Below are positions 1,781 through 6,110 of a DNA stretch of 7,245 nucleotides, piece by piece. The notes below the pieces were generated by a model. The model worked only from the letters and a program-made list of their open reading frames with translations. It was not told the origin of the DNA and did not search any database. The position numbers and the translations under genes were made by a program. Source of the stretch: JAUXIQ01 sp030620925 [NCBI: Nitrospinota bacterium] (lineage in GTDB: Bacteria; JAUXIQ01); contig JAUXIQ010000093.1 in assembly GCA_030620925.1 (NCBI GenBank), positions 1 to 7,245 of the forward strand, read 5' to 3'. The first letter of the stretch is position 1. Every line of letters begins with the position of its first letter.

Positions 1781-2212
1781 ATGGGCCACGAGGTGCGCAA
1801 AAAATACAGTATAATGGATGTTACAGCCGACATCGGCATAATTACGTCTGCACAAAGCTTGAAAGAGTTGTATGAGAACGCCGCGTTTGCTCTTTTCGAT
1901 ATCATGTGCGACGGGGGAGAGGTGAGACGGGAGGTTGAGGCGGAGGTTATTGTGGAGGGGGATGATGCCCCGTCAACGATGGTAAACTGGCTTAACGAGC
2001 TGCTATTTATTTTTGAGACGCGCTCCCTGCTCATGGTGGACTTTAAGGTTTTCAGCGCAGACTCCGCCCAGGTTAAGGCAAGGGTCGGTGGCGAAGAGTT
2101 TGACCCTTCGAGACACAAGGTGGCCAGGCATGTGAAAGCAGTAACCTACCATCGCCTCAAGGTTATGCAGACGGAAGGGGGTTGGGAGGCGGAAATACTT
2201 TTAGACATATAG
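1781..2212 (+). CDS. Archease family protein (RtcB tRNA/RNA ligase cofactor family)
   Basis: A 143-residue protein of the archease family (MTH1598/TM1083 fold). Characterised archeases are small metal-binding proteins that help the RNA ligase RtcB form its guanylate intermediate and turn over. Seen: the N-terminal block KKYSIMDVTADIGI (residues 7-20), SLKELYENAAFALFDIM (26-42), the WLNELLFIFET segment (70-80), H112, VKAVTYHRL (118-126) and a C-terminal LLDI whose Asp (142) is typically conserved. One departure is that the usual DHTAD motif reads DVTAD, with Val14 in place of His. Start: ATG 1781 gives the normal family length. An upstream ATG at 1694 would add 29 hydrophobic residues alien to the family and crosses the predicted promoter. 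GTG 1793 and ATG 1814 are alternatives, and no strong Shine-Dalgarno site settles the choice. It heads a five-gene run (34 nt to amrB). No rtcB lies in the window. Confidence 0.88.
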   Translation: MGHEVRKKYSIMDVTADIGIITSAQSLKELYENAAFALFDIMCDGGEVRREVEAEVIVEGDDAPSTMVNWLNELLFIFETRSLLMVDFKVFSADSAQVKARVGGEEFDPSRHKVARHVKAVTYHRLKVMQTEGGWEAEILLDI

Positions 2213-2232
2213 CTATACATTGCCATGGTTTC

Positions 2233-2240
2233 AGGGAGGT
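2233..2240 (+). promoter_or_regulatory. Shine-Dalgarno site deciding the amrB start
   Basis: AGGGAGGT at 2233-2240 is a near-perfect site 6 nt before ATG 2247. An in-frame TTG at 2220 would place this site inside the coding region and add nine residues not typical of the family, so ATG 2247 is taken as the start. Confidence 0.85.
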
Positions 2241-2246
2241 TCAGGC

Positions 2247-3050
2247 ATGGGAAGAAAACCGGCAGTAGCTGACGCCTTTTACCTCGCTTCTTCCGACCTG
2301 TTGAAGACCCAGGTGAGCGGGTTGGTGGAGGAAAACCTGGAGAAGGATGAAGTGGTGGGAATAGTTTCACCGCACGCGGGGTTCGTCTATTCAGGGAATG
2401 TAGCGGGCGCCGTCTATTCAAGGATAACCCTCCCGGAAACCGTAATCCTCCTGGGGCCCAATCATACCGGATACGGCCCTGCCGTATCCATCATGGCGGA
2501 GGGAAGCTGGGAAATGCCCTTAGGGGAGGTAGAGGTGGATTCGGCCACCGCCCGCAGGCTGCTCGAGCGGTCATCAGCCTTCGATGAAGACCAATCGGCG
2601 CATACGTCAGAACATTCTCTGGAGGTGCAGATTCCCTTCATCCAGCATTTCACGTCGGAATTTAAGATCGTCCCCATTATCTTTATGCACATGTCTCTGG
2701 AGCGTTGCGAGGAGTTGGGCCTGGCTCTGGCCGGGGTCATAAAAGGAGGGGACAAGAAGGTCCTTTTGGTAGGCAGCACTGATATGACCCACTTCGAGCC
2801 GCATGAGACGGCTGTGGAGAAAGACAGGATGGCCATCGACTGCATCCTGGCGCTAGACCACAGGGGCCTCTACGAGACGGTTATCGGGGAGGGCATCACC
2901 ATGTGCGGTGTAATACCCACGACGGTCATGCTGGCAGCCTGTAAGGAACTGGGGGCGTCTGAGGCGCACCTGGTGAAATATCAGACTTCAGGAGACGTCA
3001 GCGGAGACTTTGACAGCGTGGTGGGCTACGCCGGTGTATTGGTAAGCTGA
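2247..3050 (+). CDS. amrB: Memo-family protein, AmmeMemoRadiSam system protein B
   Basis: A 267-residue member of the Memo family, whose fold resembles class III extradiol (LigB-type) non-haem iron dioxygenases; human MEMO1 is the eukaryotic relative. The bacterial gene is a component of the AmmeMemoRadiSam set, whose reaction is not established to my knowledge. Seen in order: the N-terminal block RKPAVADAFY (3-12, usually AVAGxFYP), SPHAGFVYSG (41-50) with His43, LLGPNHTGYG (68-77) with His73, SEHSLEVQIPF (121-131), VGSTDMTHFEP (175-185) and ITMCGVIP (217-224) with Cys220. His43, His73 and Cys220 correspond to the metal-site residues His49, His81 and Cys244 of human MEMO1 as I recall them, so the site looks intact. 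The protein is the stand-alone Memo domain, with no fused AMMECR1 domain. It sits 34 nt after the archease gene and 43 nt before amrS, and was probably co-transcribed with both. Confidence 0.93.
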   Translation: MGRKPAVADAFYLASSDLLKTQVSGLVEENLEKDEVVGIVSPHAGFVYSGNVAGAVYSRITLPETVILLGPNHTGYGPAVSIMAEGSWEMPLGEVEVDSATARRLLERSSAFDEDQSAHTSEHSLEVQIPFIQHFTSEFKIVPIIFMHMSLERCEELGLALAGVIKGGDKKVLLVGSTDMTHFEPHETAVEKDRMAIDCILALDHRGLYETVIGEGITMCGVIPTTVMLAACKELGASEAHLVKYQTSGDVSGDFDSVVGYAGVLVS

Positions 3051-3070
3051 AAACCCGGGCGGTTTTGCAG
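3047..3070 (+). repeat. Inverted repeat (hairpin) over the amrB stop codon
   Basis: CTGAAAACC (3047-3055) can pair with GGTTTT-G-CAG (3061-3070) across a 5-nt loop CGGGC, with one bulged G at 3067. The core AAAACC/GGTTTT is perfect over 6 bp. The amrB TGA (3048-3050) lies inside the left arm. There is no T-run after the stem, so it is not a canonical terminator. It may be an mRNA stability or attenuation element between amrB and amrS, or chance. Confidence 0.45.
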
Positions 3071-3078
3071 TTTATGAT

Positions 3079-3088
3079 AGGGGGGTGA
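3079..3088 (+). promoter_or_regulatory. Shine-Dalgarno site deciding the amrS start
   Basis: A purine-rich run AGGGGGGTGA (3079-3088) resembles AGGAGGTGA and is 5 nt before TTG 3094. A GTG at 3085 overlaps the site itself and so is unlikely to be the start. The TTG start gives an N-terminus MKEAMLYEK, which is the usual beginning of this family. Confidence 0.7.
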
Positions 3089-3093
3089 GTGCC

Positions 3094-4104
3094 TTGAAAG
3101 AGGCCATGCTTTACGAAAAAATGGGGGAAGGAAACGTTCGCTGCAACCTGTGTTCCCACAGGTGCCTCATTCATGAGGGTGAAACGGGAATATGCGGGGT
3201 GCGGGAAAATACTGACGGCGCCCTCTATACCCATGTTTACGGTAAGGCCATCTCCACCAACATAGACCCCATCGAGAAGAAGCCCCTCTTCCATTTCTAT
3301 CCCGGAACCCCGATACTCTCCATAGCCACCGTGGGCTGCAACTTCAAGTGTATGCACTGCCAGAATTTTGACATATCGCAGATATCCAGGGATAAAAAAT
3401 CGATCATCGGACGGGATTTGATCCCCCGGCAGGCGGTGGCCCTGGCTGAGGATAATGGCTGCACAAGTATATCTTACACCTACACCGAGCCCACCATCTT
3501 CTTCGAGTATGCATACGAGACCGCAAGCCTGGCGCACCGGAAGGGAATGAAGAACGTCTTCGTCACCAACGGGTATATGACGGAGGAAGCACTGGATACC
3601 ATCGAGCCTTACCTGGACGCGGCCAACGTGGATTTAAAAGGTTTCAGCGAAAAGTTCTATAAGACGGTCTGCGGAGGCAGGCTGGAACCCGTGCTGGACA
3701 CCCTGAGGCGTATGGTGGCCAGGGGCATCTGGGTGGAGGTGACCACGCTGGTAATCCCCTACTATAACGATTCTCCCCGGGAGCTCCGCTCAATAGCGGA
3801 GTTTATTCATGATGAGCTGGGGGCTTCGGTCCCCTGGCATATAAGCCGGTTCCACCCAGCGTATAAGCTGACTGAGAGCGTCAGGACGCCGGTTGAGACG
3901 ATAAGCGAGGCGCGCCGGATGGGGTTGGAGACGGGGCTCGAGTATGTCTATACTGGAAACGTGCCCGGCGACGAGGGCGAGAACACCTTCTGTCCCTCCT
4001 GCGGGCAGGTGGTCATAGGGCGTTACGGCTATCACGTGCAGAAGTATAATATAGAAAATTCATGTTGCAATAAATGCGGGGCGTCAATAGCCGGCGAGTT
4101 CTAG
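3094..4104 (+). CDS. amrS: Radical SAM protein of the AmmeMemoRadiSam system
   Basis: A 336-residue cytoplasmic radical SAM enzyme, related to pyruvate formate-lyase activating enzymes. It is expected to hold a [4Fe-4S] cluster and cleave S-adenosylmethionine; its substrate is not known. Seen: an N-terminal cysteine set Cys17, Cys20, Cys24, Cys34 (CNLCSHRC...GICGVR), the AmrS-type block KPLFHFYPG (63-71), the cluster motif GCNFKCMHCQN with Cys82, Cys86 and Cys89 (CX3CX2C), then SYTYTEPTIFFEY, VFVTNGY, ANVDLKGF, and PWHISRFHP before the C-terminus. The C-terminal tail has two further pairs, CPSC (300/303) and CNKC (325/328), that look like a small metal-binding ribbon common in this subfamily. 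All family parts are intact. The TTG 3094 start is chosen from the Shine-Dalgarno site. It directly follows amrB, which is the usual partner. Confidence 0.94.
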   Translation: MKEAMLYEKMGEGNVRCNLCSHRCLIHEGETGICGVRENTDGALYTHVYGKAISTNIDPIEKKPLFHFYPGTPILSIATVGCNFKCMHCQNFDISQISRDKKSIIGRDLIPRQAVALAEDNGCTSISYTYTEPTIFFEYAYETASLAHRKGMKNVFVTNGYMTEEALDTIEPYLDAANVDLKGFSEKFYKTVCGGRLEPVLDTLRRMVARGIWVEVTTLVIPYYNDSPRELRSIAEFIHDELGASVPWHISRFHPAYKLTESVRTPVETISEARRMGLETGLEYVYTGNVPGDEGENTFCPSCGQVVIGRYGYHVQKYNIENSCCNKCGASIAGEF

Positions 4105-4152
4105 GGGGATTGTCTCTATAAAACCAGGAACAACATTTTACGGGGGCGTTCT

Positions 4153-4806
4153 ATGGAATACATAAGGACGGGAAATCTGGTAAAAGGTTTTTTCTCGGGG
4201 AAGAGGGATATCGTTGTCCCTTTGATTATCAGCGTGGTGGTGCATGGGCTGATAATATATTTTATCGTCGCCGGTGGCCCGAATGTCCCCGGGCAGAACG
4301 GTAAGCTTTACGCTGGTAAAAAATTGACCATGGCCGAAGATTTCGTGGTGGGTCAATCCAACCTGCTGTTGGGGAGACTCTCAGATAGGCTGTCTAAAAT
4401 CCGAAATTCTTCCAAGGGCGATGCAGCCCTGGAATGGTCGCTGGACAGCATGCCGGTCAAAATAACTTCCGCTTCCAAGGTCGCGGGACTCAAGTTGGTG
4501 AAGATCAAGCTGGCAAAGCTGGGAAAGAAAAACGGCGAAGATAGCTACGACGTAAACATGAGGGTTTATACTACTTCTGGGAGAGTTTTCGACGATATAC
4601 TTCTGCTTTCCCACATGGTGGGAGACGCGACGCTGCACAGCAAATTCACGACGGATAAATTGGTCATCTACGTGAAGGATAAGAAGACCTCCGGCGCTGC
4701 CCGGTTCAGCGTATCCACCAGGGAAGCCAGGAGGTTTTACCTTAGAAGAATTACCCCCAACGAATTCCTTATAGACGCCGCCGTTCAAGAGGTAAATGAC
4801 TGGTAA
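4153..4806 (+). CDS. Hypothetical single-pass membrane protein with TonB-like N-terminal anchor
   Basis: I do not recognise this 217-residue protein. It starts at ATG 4153 with GGGGG (4142-4146) 6 nt upstream. Residues 1-19 are basic and polar (MEYIRTGNLVKGFFSGKRD). Residues 20-40 form one transmembrane helix, giving an N-in/C-out topology by the positive-inside rule. Inside the helix is Ser27-Val-Val-Val-His31-Gly, which matches the Ser-x3-His-Gly pattern of the TonB anchor (Ser16/His20 in E. coli TonB). The rest (about 41-217) is soluble, has no cysteine, and carries a Gly/Pro/Asn linker (41-50), a segment rich in Leu and Lys around 110-125, and a C-terminal region that looks beta-rich. It lacks a Pro-rich spacer and a recognisable TonB C-terminal domain, so it is not called TonB. 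It is 48 nt after amrS and 30 nt before the M20 gene, so it is probably in their operon. It could be a lineage-specific envelope protein. Confidence 0.7.
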   Translation: MEYIRTGNLVKGFFSGKRDIVVPLIISVVVHGLIIYFIVAGGPNVPGQNGKLYAGKKLTMAEDFVVGQSNLLLGRLSDRLSKIRNSSKGDAALEWSLDSMPVKITSASKVAGLKLVKIKLAKLGKKNGEDSYDVNMRVYTTSGRVFDDILLLSHMVGDATLHSKFTTDKLVIYVKDKKTSGAARFSVSTREARRFYLRRITPNEFLIDAAVQEVNDW

Positions 4807-4836
4807 ATACTGTTAAAAAATAGTGGAGGCCGAACA

Positions 4837-6045
4837 GTGAGTGAATGGAACCAGGGGCTGAGAGAGGAGATAAAATCCAGGGCCGGGAGTCTCACCGACA
4901 AGGTGACGGAGATCAGGCGCGACTTTCACCGGAACCCCGAGCGCTCGAAGCGCGAGGAGCGCACGTCGGACATCGTGGCTCAACATCTGGAGTCGCTGGG
5001 CATAGAAGTCAAACGCTGCACCGGCAATTACGGCGTCATAGGCACCCTGAGGTGTGCTTCTGATGGAAAGACGGTGGGCCTGAGGGCGGATATGGACGCC
5101 CTGAAGCTTCAAGAAGAGACGGGCCTGCCTTTCGCCTCACAGGTGGACGGCGTCATGCATGCCTGCGGGCACGACGCCCACACCGCGATGCTCATGGGCG
5201 TGGCCAAGACGCTGGTATCCGTTAAGGACAAGCTGAAGGGCAACGTCAGGTTCCTCTTCCAGCCTTCGGAAGAGGCGTTTCCCGGGGGCGCCCTGGGGAT
5301 GATCGAGGAGGGGGCCATGGAGGACCCTCATGTGGATGCGGTATTTGCCTGGCATGTCATGTCCAACCTGCCTCAGGGTCAGGTCGGCCTGCGCACGGGG
5401 CAGATCATCGGGGGCGTCACGGCGGTGAATATACACGTCAAAGGTGTGGGGGGGCATTTCTCCTCCCCTCATCTGGCGGTGGACCCCATCGTCATAGCCG
5501 CCAACGTATTGGTGGCCCTGCAATCGGTCATGACCAGACAGGTGGACCCCATGGAATCCGCCGTTCTAACCTTCGGCACCATCTCCGGCGGCACCAGGGA
5601 CAACGTTATCGGGCAGGAGGTCATCATCAGGGGTAACCTGGGGGCGATGAACGACCAGCTTCGCTATCAACTATCGGAGGGAATAGAGGGATGCGCCAGG
5701 AGCGTGGCCGAGAGCATGGGAGGTTCGGCGGAAGTAAAGCTCTGGCATGGTTACCCCACAACAGAAAACGAAGCCGGGATGACCGAGTTTACACACCGGA
5801 TTATGCTCGAGGAACTGGGTGAAGAAAGCGTGGTGGAAATGGACCGGGTGCTGGGCGGGGAGGATTTCTCCTACTTCCTGCAAAAAGCTCCGGGCGCCCT
5901 CCTTCGGCTGGGTGTATGGGATATGGATAAACACTCCGAACCCACGCACCACCATCACCCGGAATTCGATCTGGATGAGAGGGCCCTCCCAATGGGTGTG
6001 GACCTGCTGGCGCAGGTGGCGGCCAGATATTTGCTCGTCGATTGA
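4837..6045 (+). CDS. M20 family metallo-amidohydrolase (M20D, aminoacylase/hippurate hydrolase-like)
   Basis: A 402-residue protein starting at GTG 4837, with TGGAGG (4824-4829) 7 nt upstream. It belongs to the M20D group of two-metal hydrolases (N-acyl-amino-acid and IAA-amino-acid hydrolases, hippurate hydrolase, carboxypeptidase-like enzymes), which cut amide bonds of N-acylated amino acids or small peptides. Seen: RRDFHRNPE (27-35), LRADMDAL (82-89), MHACGHDAHT (107-116) with Cys110 and His112, FQPSEEA (141-147) with the catalytic Glu145 and metal-ligand Glu146, AWHVMSNLPQGQVG (171-184) with His173, the dimerisation-domain GVGGHFSSPHLAVDPI (203-218), LGGEDFSYFL (339-348) and the late His region THHHHPEFD (370-378). 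The expected ligand set is complete and the length is normal. There is no signal peptide, so it is probably cytoplasmic. The substrate cannot be told from sequence. It is the last gene of the run; a terminator begins just after its stop codon. Confidence 0.93.
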   Translation: MSEWNQGLREEIKSRAGSLTDKVTEIRRDFHRNPERSKREERTSDIVAQHLESLGIEVKRCTGNYGVIGTLRCASDGKTVGLRADMDALKLQEETGLPFASQVDGVMHACGHDAHTAMLMGVAKTLVSVKDKLKGNVRFLFQPSEEAFPGGALGMIEEGAMEDPHVDAVFAWHVMSNLPQGQVGLRTGQIIGGVTAVNIHVKGVGGHFSSPHLAVDPIVIAANVLVALQSVMTRQVDPMESAVLTFGTISGGTRDNVIGQEVIIRGNLGAMNDQLRYQLSEGIEGCARSVAESMGGSAEVKLWHGYPTTENEAGMTEFTHRIMLEELGEESVVEMDRVLGGEDFSYFLQKAPGALLRLGVWDMDKHSEPTHHHHPEFDLDERALPMGVDLLAQVAARYLLVD

Positions 6046-6078
6046 GGGCCGTTGCATGAAAGATACCACGGCCTTTTT
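6046..6078 (+). terminator. Intrinsic terminator after the M20 gene
   Basis: GGCCGT (6047-6052) pairs perfectly with ACGGCC (6068-6073), extended by a G-U pair (6046/6074), across a 15-nt loop, followed by TTTTT at 6074-6078. It begins directly after the TGA stop at 6043-6045 and would end the archease-to-M20 transcript. Confidence 0.8.
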
Positions 6079-6080
6079 AC

Positions 6081-6110
6081 TTGACACAATTTTAAGCACT
6101 TGATTATATT
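6081..6110 (+). promoter_or_regulatory. Strong predicted sigma-70 promoter for tatA-rel
   Basis: A perfect -35 TTGACA at 6081-6086 is followed by TGATTATATT at 6101-6110. This reads either as an extended -10 (TG at 6101, TTATAT at 6104-6109, 17-nt spacer) or as TATATT at 6105-6110 with an 18-nt spacer. Transcription should begin near 6117. It starts only two bases after the T-run of the preceding terminator. It is the best promoter match in the window. Confidence 0.75.

Follow-up and report, generated by a model that had tools for sequence, protein, structure and literature searches.

What is an archease gene doing directly ahead of genes for AmrB and AmrS, and do the five closely spaced genes that stand together here share a function? 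The question is raised by one contig (C268) of the Nitrospinota bacterium JAUXIQ01 sp030620925. This contig, 7,245 bases long, is the whole stretch of DNA that was analysed and is called the window below; nothing is readable past either of its ends. It carries 9 genes, all on the + strand: mltG (partial), DUF502, archease, amrB, amrS, an uncharacterised open reading frame (ORF4), an M20 amidohydrolase gene, tatA and relA/spoT (partial). On balance we hold it probable that the five genes from archease to M20 form an operon-like unit, in which an activator of the RNA ligase RtcB is joined to a stand-alone radical S-adenosylmethionine (SAM) enzyme resembling the pyruvate formate-lyase (PFL) activases, while the other members are lineage-specific companions. 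From the neighbourhoods we infer that the function of the unit most likely lies in the orbit of RNA ligation by RtcB and archease. The source genome is a 2.5-Mb draft in 445 contigs, 89% complete, and the only member of its phylum in the set of genomes compared, where its 40 nearest relatives are all related at domain level only.

The first gene of the five encodes an archease, of the RtcB-activating factor family, with 143 amino acids (1781-2212, + strand; Pfam PF01951, 139.9 bits against a cut-off of 25). According to PMC3973293, archease activates RtcB, and in P. horikoshii the metal-site residues D12 and D141, K117 and the C-terminal isoleucine are needed for this activation. When the window archease is aligned to the archease structures 1jw3 and 4n2p, it keeps these positions (P. 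horikoshii numbering, with a one-residue offset between the structure entry and PMC3973293; the C-terminal residue is leucine in 1jw3). The conserved His9 position is a valine in the window, but this is also the case in MTH1598 and is therefore not decisive for membership. An rtcB gene is found elsewhere in the source genome (C109, 2881-4185), with no archease beside it. Because this RtcB is full-length and the activation residues of the archease are kept, the window archease most likely acts on it in trans, from a separate locus. Archease is present in 167 of the 386 bacterial genomes compared, source genome included, and RtcB in 70 of 71 genomes that were selected for carrying both archease and AmrB, the source genome among them. 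The locus can be compared with the archease-RtcB tRNA splicing operon (Desai et al. 2014, PMC3973293), with which it shares the archease family, the compact arrangement of the genes on one strand, an RtcB encoded in the genome and most of the activation residues. It differs in that rtcB is on another contig, that AmrB, AmrS, ORF4 and M20 follow archease, and in the valine just mentioned.

What archease stands next to in other genomes was surveyed at 140 loci, which were scanned up to 9 kb on each side with profiles built from the loci; 60 of them are shorter than 18 kb due to contig ends, so absences are incomplete. Archease places in G228, G341, G175, G238, G291, G312, G176 and G029 are not part of this sample, nor are the weakest matches. 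In 85 of the 140 loci, RtcB is found no more than 1.5 kb from archease. AmrS (leaving aside a 37-bit match, L257) is near archease in five, and in three of these it is within 1.1 kb and on the same strand (G265, G086 and G360), each time with RtcB following archease; in G265 the amrS and archease genes overlap. Under random placement 0.30 such cases would be expected within 1.1 kb (P 0.0035), and the excess is seen at 0.5 kb (2 against 0.20, P 0.017) as well as at 8 kb (5 against 1.43, P 0.016). A further set of 80 genomes was self-chosen and includes known positives, and the random expectation was therefore based on the number of archease loci, 140. In a ranking of the genes found around archease, made over the 117 loci with gene calls, RtcB leads with 48 bacterial families, followed by gyrase A with 18 and a large ABC-ATPase cluster with 4. 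At 24 of the 117 loci (e.g. L151 and L156) the distance between archease and gyrase A, second to RtcB, is at most 1.5 kb.

Two of the loci are also worth describing for themselves. The fullest RNA-repair cluster with AmrS that was seen is in G086 (L166), where an AmrS gene truncated by the edge of the contig stands in one co-directional row with a small gene of the PD-(D/E)XK type, archease, RtcB, a protein repair methyltransferase (PCMT) and the RNA 3'-phosphate cyclase RtcA. In G360 (L170, 2554-4026) the reading frame of the rtcB that neighbours archease and AmrS is interrupted by a TAA at a distance from the active site, which may reflect a defective gene or an error in sequencing.

The same pair appears when the search starts from AmrS. 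The sample here consists of 80 loci from named genomes, those out of 224 whose AmrS is most similar to that of the window; 45 of them have less than 3 kb on one side, which makes absences incomplete. Archease and RtcB are both within 3 kb of AmrS in five loci (L068 from Latescibacterota, L080 and L081 from Nitrospirota, L125, and L138 from Aminicenantes), representing four distinct lineages. If one archease per genome and a genome size of 3 Mb are assumed, about 0.16 cases would be expected, and four independent ones have a P of 2e-5. Gene calls are available for 78 of the loci, and there rtcB, archease and nadA are the only clusters within 3 kb of AmrS that appear under four phylum labels, these labels being NCBI names with seven assigned by hand. 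In family f210, to which G265 belongs, amrS directly precedes archease in all four genomes, which represent three genera and have differing gaps, and rtcB follows archease in three of them; in the fourth the contig ends there. Altogether six lineages other than that of the window pair archease, with or without RtcB, with AmrS. The pair thus recurs weakly, but beyond random expectation, in unrelated lineages. The sequence-only reading had asked if the adjacency of archease, amrB and amrS extends beyond close relatives. For archease and AmrS it does, in several phyla and together with RtcB, whereas archease with AmrB and archease with ORF4 do not recur in the loci read and M20 shows no clear link. 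Taken as a five-part pathway, the group fails this check to the extent that the compared genomes allow it. As a separate observation, the amrS-archease-rtcB group of G386 (L343) is closely followed on its downstream side by CRISPR genes, for Cse1 and a CT1975-like Cas protein.

The AmrS of the window (3094-4104, + strand, 336 amino acids) passes its family model (TIGR04337, 383.7 bits against a cut-off of 220) and belongs to a stand-alone, or type 2, clade. In a tree of 108 AmrS proteins it falls in a clade of 87 with a support of 99 in the Shimodaira-Hasegawa-like approximate likelihood ratio test (SH-aLRT). Besides the window, this clade includes 8 rows linked to archease and RtcB, which come from six lineages, and 78 with neither neighbour within 3 kb; all 13 rows linked to AmrA or AmrB are outside it. 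A second, more careful tree of 44 rows recovers the stand-alone clade (28 rows) with a support of 100/100. This tree leaves out 64 of the 108 rows, namely two long branches, the partial but archease-linked L166 and 61 rows without such neighbours, and its bootstrap had not settled. The archease label changes six times on the larger tree and five times on the smaller one, at least three times on well-supported branches, and therefore the linkage arose repeatedly, or was repeatedly kept and lost. The two kinds also differ in sequence motifs: a PWH motif is invariant in 40 aligned members of the stand-alone clade, whereas P(L/V/I)HF is found in the nine rows shown for the other type. Both types occur together in some genomes, such as G265 with one AmrS by AmrB-AmrA (L302) and one by archease-RtcB (L155). 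Geomonas limicola, a cultivable species, also has a type-2 AmrS (L120), but the 17 kb read around it contain no archease. At the 80 named AmrS loci, with the short flanks already mentioned, neither AmrA nor AmrB was found near AmrS, and no row of the stand-alone clade other than the window's was seen to adjoin AmrB.

The structure model of the window AmrS has a predicted local distance difference test (pLDDT) value of 96, and its closest solved fold is PFL activating enzyme, with a Z of 24.9 over 225 residues. NifB (Z 18.8) and the RNA-modifying enzymes RlmN (16.4) and TYW1 (15.7) are further away; the comparison covers a Foldseek/VIA list holding PFL activase and then many radical SAM enzymes, and families off this list may resemble the model too. 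Like the PFL activating enzyme and related radical SAM activases, the window AmrS has a CxxxCxxC motif, but it differs from them by an extra N-terminal cysteine motif and a C-terminal segment with CxxC...CxxC, and it scores 56 bits with the PFLA profile TIGR02493, where the cut-off is 231.75. Tree, motifs and model together show a protein from a sister clade of the AmrA/AmrB-linked AmrS, mostly found without these two, and predict a PFL-activase-like fold. AmrS can accordingly be split into AmrA/AmrB-linked forms and a stand-alone clade, the second of which is found by archease-RtcB in several unrelated lineages.

That the five genes are transcribed as one unit is most likely, given the gaps between them and the terminator behind them. 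The sequence-only reading had described five co-directional genes with gaps of 34, 43, 48 and 30 nt and a good terminator, and both descriptions are borne out by the gene calls and by folding. There is some freedom in the starts: an alternative GTG start of amrS at 3085 would reduce the gap to amrB to 34 nt, and the archease frame is open upstream as far as an ATG at 1694, which makes the archease start uncertain. At the 3' end a hairpin with a U run (6044-6078, + strand) has a folding energy of -13.1 kcal/mol (z -2.97) and a 9-bp outer stem, and 3 of 200 shuffled sequences fold equally well. A simple terminator scan, in which the loop limit was 8, missed this hairpin. Directly after it, and ahead of tatA, comes the best promoter-like site of the window, a strong sigma-70-like match (6081-6110, + strand, 11 of 12 positions) that would serve the next unit of tatA and relA/spoT. 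The 3' border is credible because of this succession of hairpin, U run and promoter-like site. The 5' border is less so. An extended -10 promoter had been proposed ahead of archease, and an exact match, TGTTATATT, is indeed present at 1726-1734 on the + strand. This motif, allowing up to one mismatch, occurs 7 times in the window against 8.1 expected from shuffled sequence, a frequency at chance level, which makes the site weak evidence for a promoter. A two-hexamer promoter scan listed no site upstream of archease, and an Rfam search of the window gave no RNA element at gathering score.

The companions have different backgrounds. AmrB (2247-3050, + strand) is a single-domain Memo-like protein of 267 amino acids (TIGR04336, 321.4 bits against a cut-off of 26; Pfam Memo, 253.1 bits) that could be aligned to human MEMO1; both Memo and AMMECR1 have human relatives. 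It is present in 274 of the 386 genomes. The sequence-only reading had assigned AmrB and AmrS to the AmmeMemoRadiSam set. Both pass the family cut-offs of this system (TIGR04336 and TIGR04337) and they adjoin each other, and an AmrA (AMMECR1) is encoded in the genome. The label has to be corrected, however, in that the single AmrA of the draft is on a separate contig (C289, 1430-1909), unlinked to the window genes, and in that the AmrS is from the clade elsewhere seen only without AmrA and AmrB. The source genome also encodes a second Memo-domain protein (C18 of G000; L289, 766-1986) of 407 amino acids, which is extended at the N-terminus by about 110 residues; the extension has no Pfam match at E 0.001.

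ORF4 (4153-4806, + strand, 217 amino acids) has one N-terminal hydrophobic stretch. It matches no Pfam family at E <= 1, its NCBIfam matches are far below cut-off and it has no solved relative, and an assignment to a known protein was therefore rejected; its single-sequence model has a pLDDT of 42.5, too low to be of use. Relatives at E <= 0.001 were found in 3 of 385 other genomes (G214, G072 and G349), and the sequence read around them shows no archease, AmrB or AmrS nearby. In G214 (L314) the relative is flanked by cinA and a Ppx/GppA gene, and in G072 (L315) it directly precedes a Ppx/GppA gene; a Ppx/GppA phosphatase is thus a possible partner of this membrane family, judging by gene order. 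The last gene (4837-6045, + strand) encodes an M20-family amidohydrolase or carboxypeptidase of 402 amino acids (TIGR01891, 358.1 bits; the CpsA model gives 394.3 bits, with a cut-off of 500). At 2 of the 140 loci a relative of it occurs no further than 9 kb from archease, in one case adjacent with a gap of 51 nt (gyrA-archease-M20, in G198) and in the other 3 kb away, which we judged, without a control, to be ordinary for a common family. M20 was consequently rejected as a regular partner of archease, and the idea that the ORF4 homologue and M20 travel with it did not hold up. A conserved archease-AmrB pair was likewise rejected, as AmrB is near archease in none of the 140 loci. The five-gene set was found in no other bacterial locus read and looks private to the lineage of the window.

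How much of this could be chance? In that case co-directional housekeeping genes would have come to adjoin one another in a single lineage, archease belonging with RtcB, AmrB and AmrS with AmrA, and ORF4 and M20 each acting independently, and the archease-AmrS pairs of other genomes would be due to coincidence and local synteny. We consider this rather unlikely, although a number of observations weigh for it and against a tie between archease and AmrS. The whole contig is co-directional, and the shared strand of the five genes therefore says little; archease is by AmrB in none of the 140 loci, and neither ORF4 nor M20 has a steady link with it. The archease-AmrS counts are small and near noise in the neighbour ranking, where AmrS reaches three families and is tied with two other clusters, a weak signal when taken alone. 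Around AmrS, nadA ties with archease and rtcB, so clade-wise synteny can reach that level, and 78 of the 87 rows in the stand-alone clade have neither archease nor RtcB within 3 kb. The AmrS of L125 is identical to that of G360 (L170), in L080 and L081 the AmrS and archease genes are divergent, and in L068, L166 and L170 one gene lies between them. In the phylum of G265, the sequence read from three archease genomes outside f210, which is short in one case, shows no link with amrS, and archease is missing altogether from 2 of the 9 genomes. In the window itself AmrB stands between the two genes, and the locus has no RtcB. Chance does not readily explain why the pair exceeds expectation in both samples, why it is retained in three genera of f210 at differing gaps, or why the archease-linked AmrS on the tree are always of one clade.

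A different possibility is that an AmmeMemoRadiSam locus of AmrB and AmrS gained archease by accident. Both proteins score above the family cut-offs, AmrA is in the genome and AmrB and AmrS are neighbours elsewhere, in 12 places that were picked for near coordinates and within 1.5 kb in 2 of 29 AmrB loci. It is nevertheless quite unlikely, as the window AmrS carries the motifs of the stand-alone clade, a clade without AmrA or AmrB neighbours at the named loci. Least probable is a dedicated five-gene pathway, in which AmrB and AmrS would modify an RNA or peptide, archease would act as chaperone, ORF4 would be the membrane anchor and M20 would trim the product. The short gaps, the common terminator and the gyrA-archease-M20 arrangement of G198 would fit it. 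At no other locus examined is the set found, though, the ORF4 relatives precede Ppx/GppA in two of three genomes, M20 is by archease as rarely as stated above, and the source genome is the sole representative of its phylum in the compared set. The sequence-only reading had spoken of an RNA-linked or peptide-modifying pathway; the RNA part gains from the recurrence of archease-AmrS with RtcB, while the peptide route with M20 is unsupported.

The operon-like unit that we favour could then work as follows. The five genes would be transcribed together, and the archease would activate the RtcB encoded elsewhere in the genome. The radical SAM enzyme would be an AmrS of the stand-alone clade and not the usual companion of AmrA and AmrB. 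Because this clade recurs by archease-RtcB in unrelated lineages, it probably acts in RNA end healing and ligation, perhaps by modifying an RNA or protein substrate of the RtcB-archease pathway; AmrB, ORF4 and M20 would be companions peculiar to this lineage, with no conserved link to archease. A bolder version, which we find doubtful, makes type-2 AmrS a dedicated partner of RtcB-archease that modifies the RNA end, a tRNA or the ligase, with AmrB having joined the unit here. It might, for example, keep the oxidation-prone active-site cysteine of RtcB usable; oxidation sensitivity of this cysteine is described for human RTCB in PMC12263435. If the link of archease with AmrS is due to chance, the window is ordinary. 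If it is real, the radical enzymes of AmmeMemoRadiSam gain a first testable pathway, and a vague guess about RNA becomes a concrete question on the role of type-2 AmrS in RNA ligation. We know of no established substrate of AmrS, nor of a settled AmmeMemoRadiSam chemistry. The main analysis of Memo contexts is reportedly that of Burroughs et al. 2019 (J Biol Chem). No paper linking archease or RtcB to AmrS or Memo was among those listed in literature searches, and an earlier mention in that study is possible; PMC7159879 only refers to it.

Some of the rtcB genes seen in other genomes are unusual. In two of the 386 genomes, according to a motif scan with one mismatch allowed, rtcB has an in-frame TGA at the catalytic metal-binding cysteine (DIN-C-GVR): in G214 (C68, codon 2985-2987 of L177) and in G150 (C13, codon 5630-5632 of L290). 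The frame is open for 382 codons past the TGA in both, which makes them candidates for natural selenocysteine RtcB. The hairpin after the TGA has an apical GGUCU and a z of -3.1 in G150, while that in G214 (z -1.0) is not beyond chance, and the hairpin is weak evidence for selenocysteine because the same stretch of the source genome's cysteine-containing RtcB also folds well (z -2.3). No selenocysteine insertion sequence (SECIS) was among the Rfam matches up to E 5 near the two genes. Selenocysteine was engineered at this site in P. horikoshii RtcB in 2014 (PMC4150793), and no natural selenocysteine RtcB appeared among the papers listed in literature searches. In three further places (G208, C36; G183, C50; G174, C209) the RtcB match falls into two parts inside a single open frame of about 1,000 codons, the pattern that an intein would produce.

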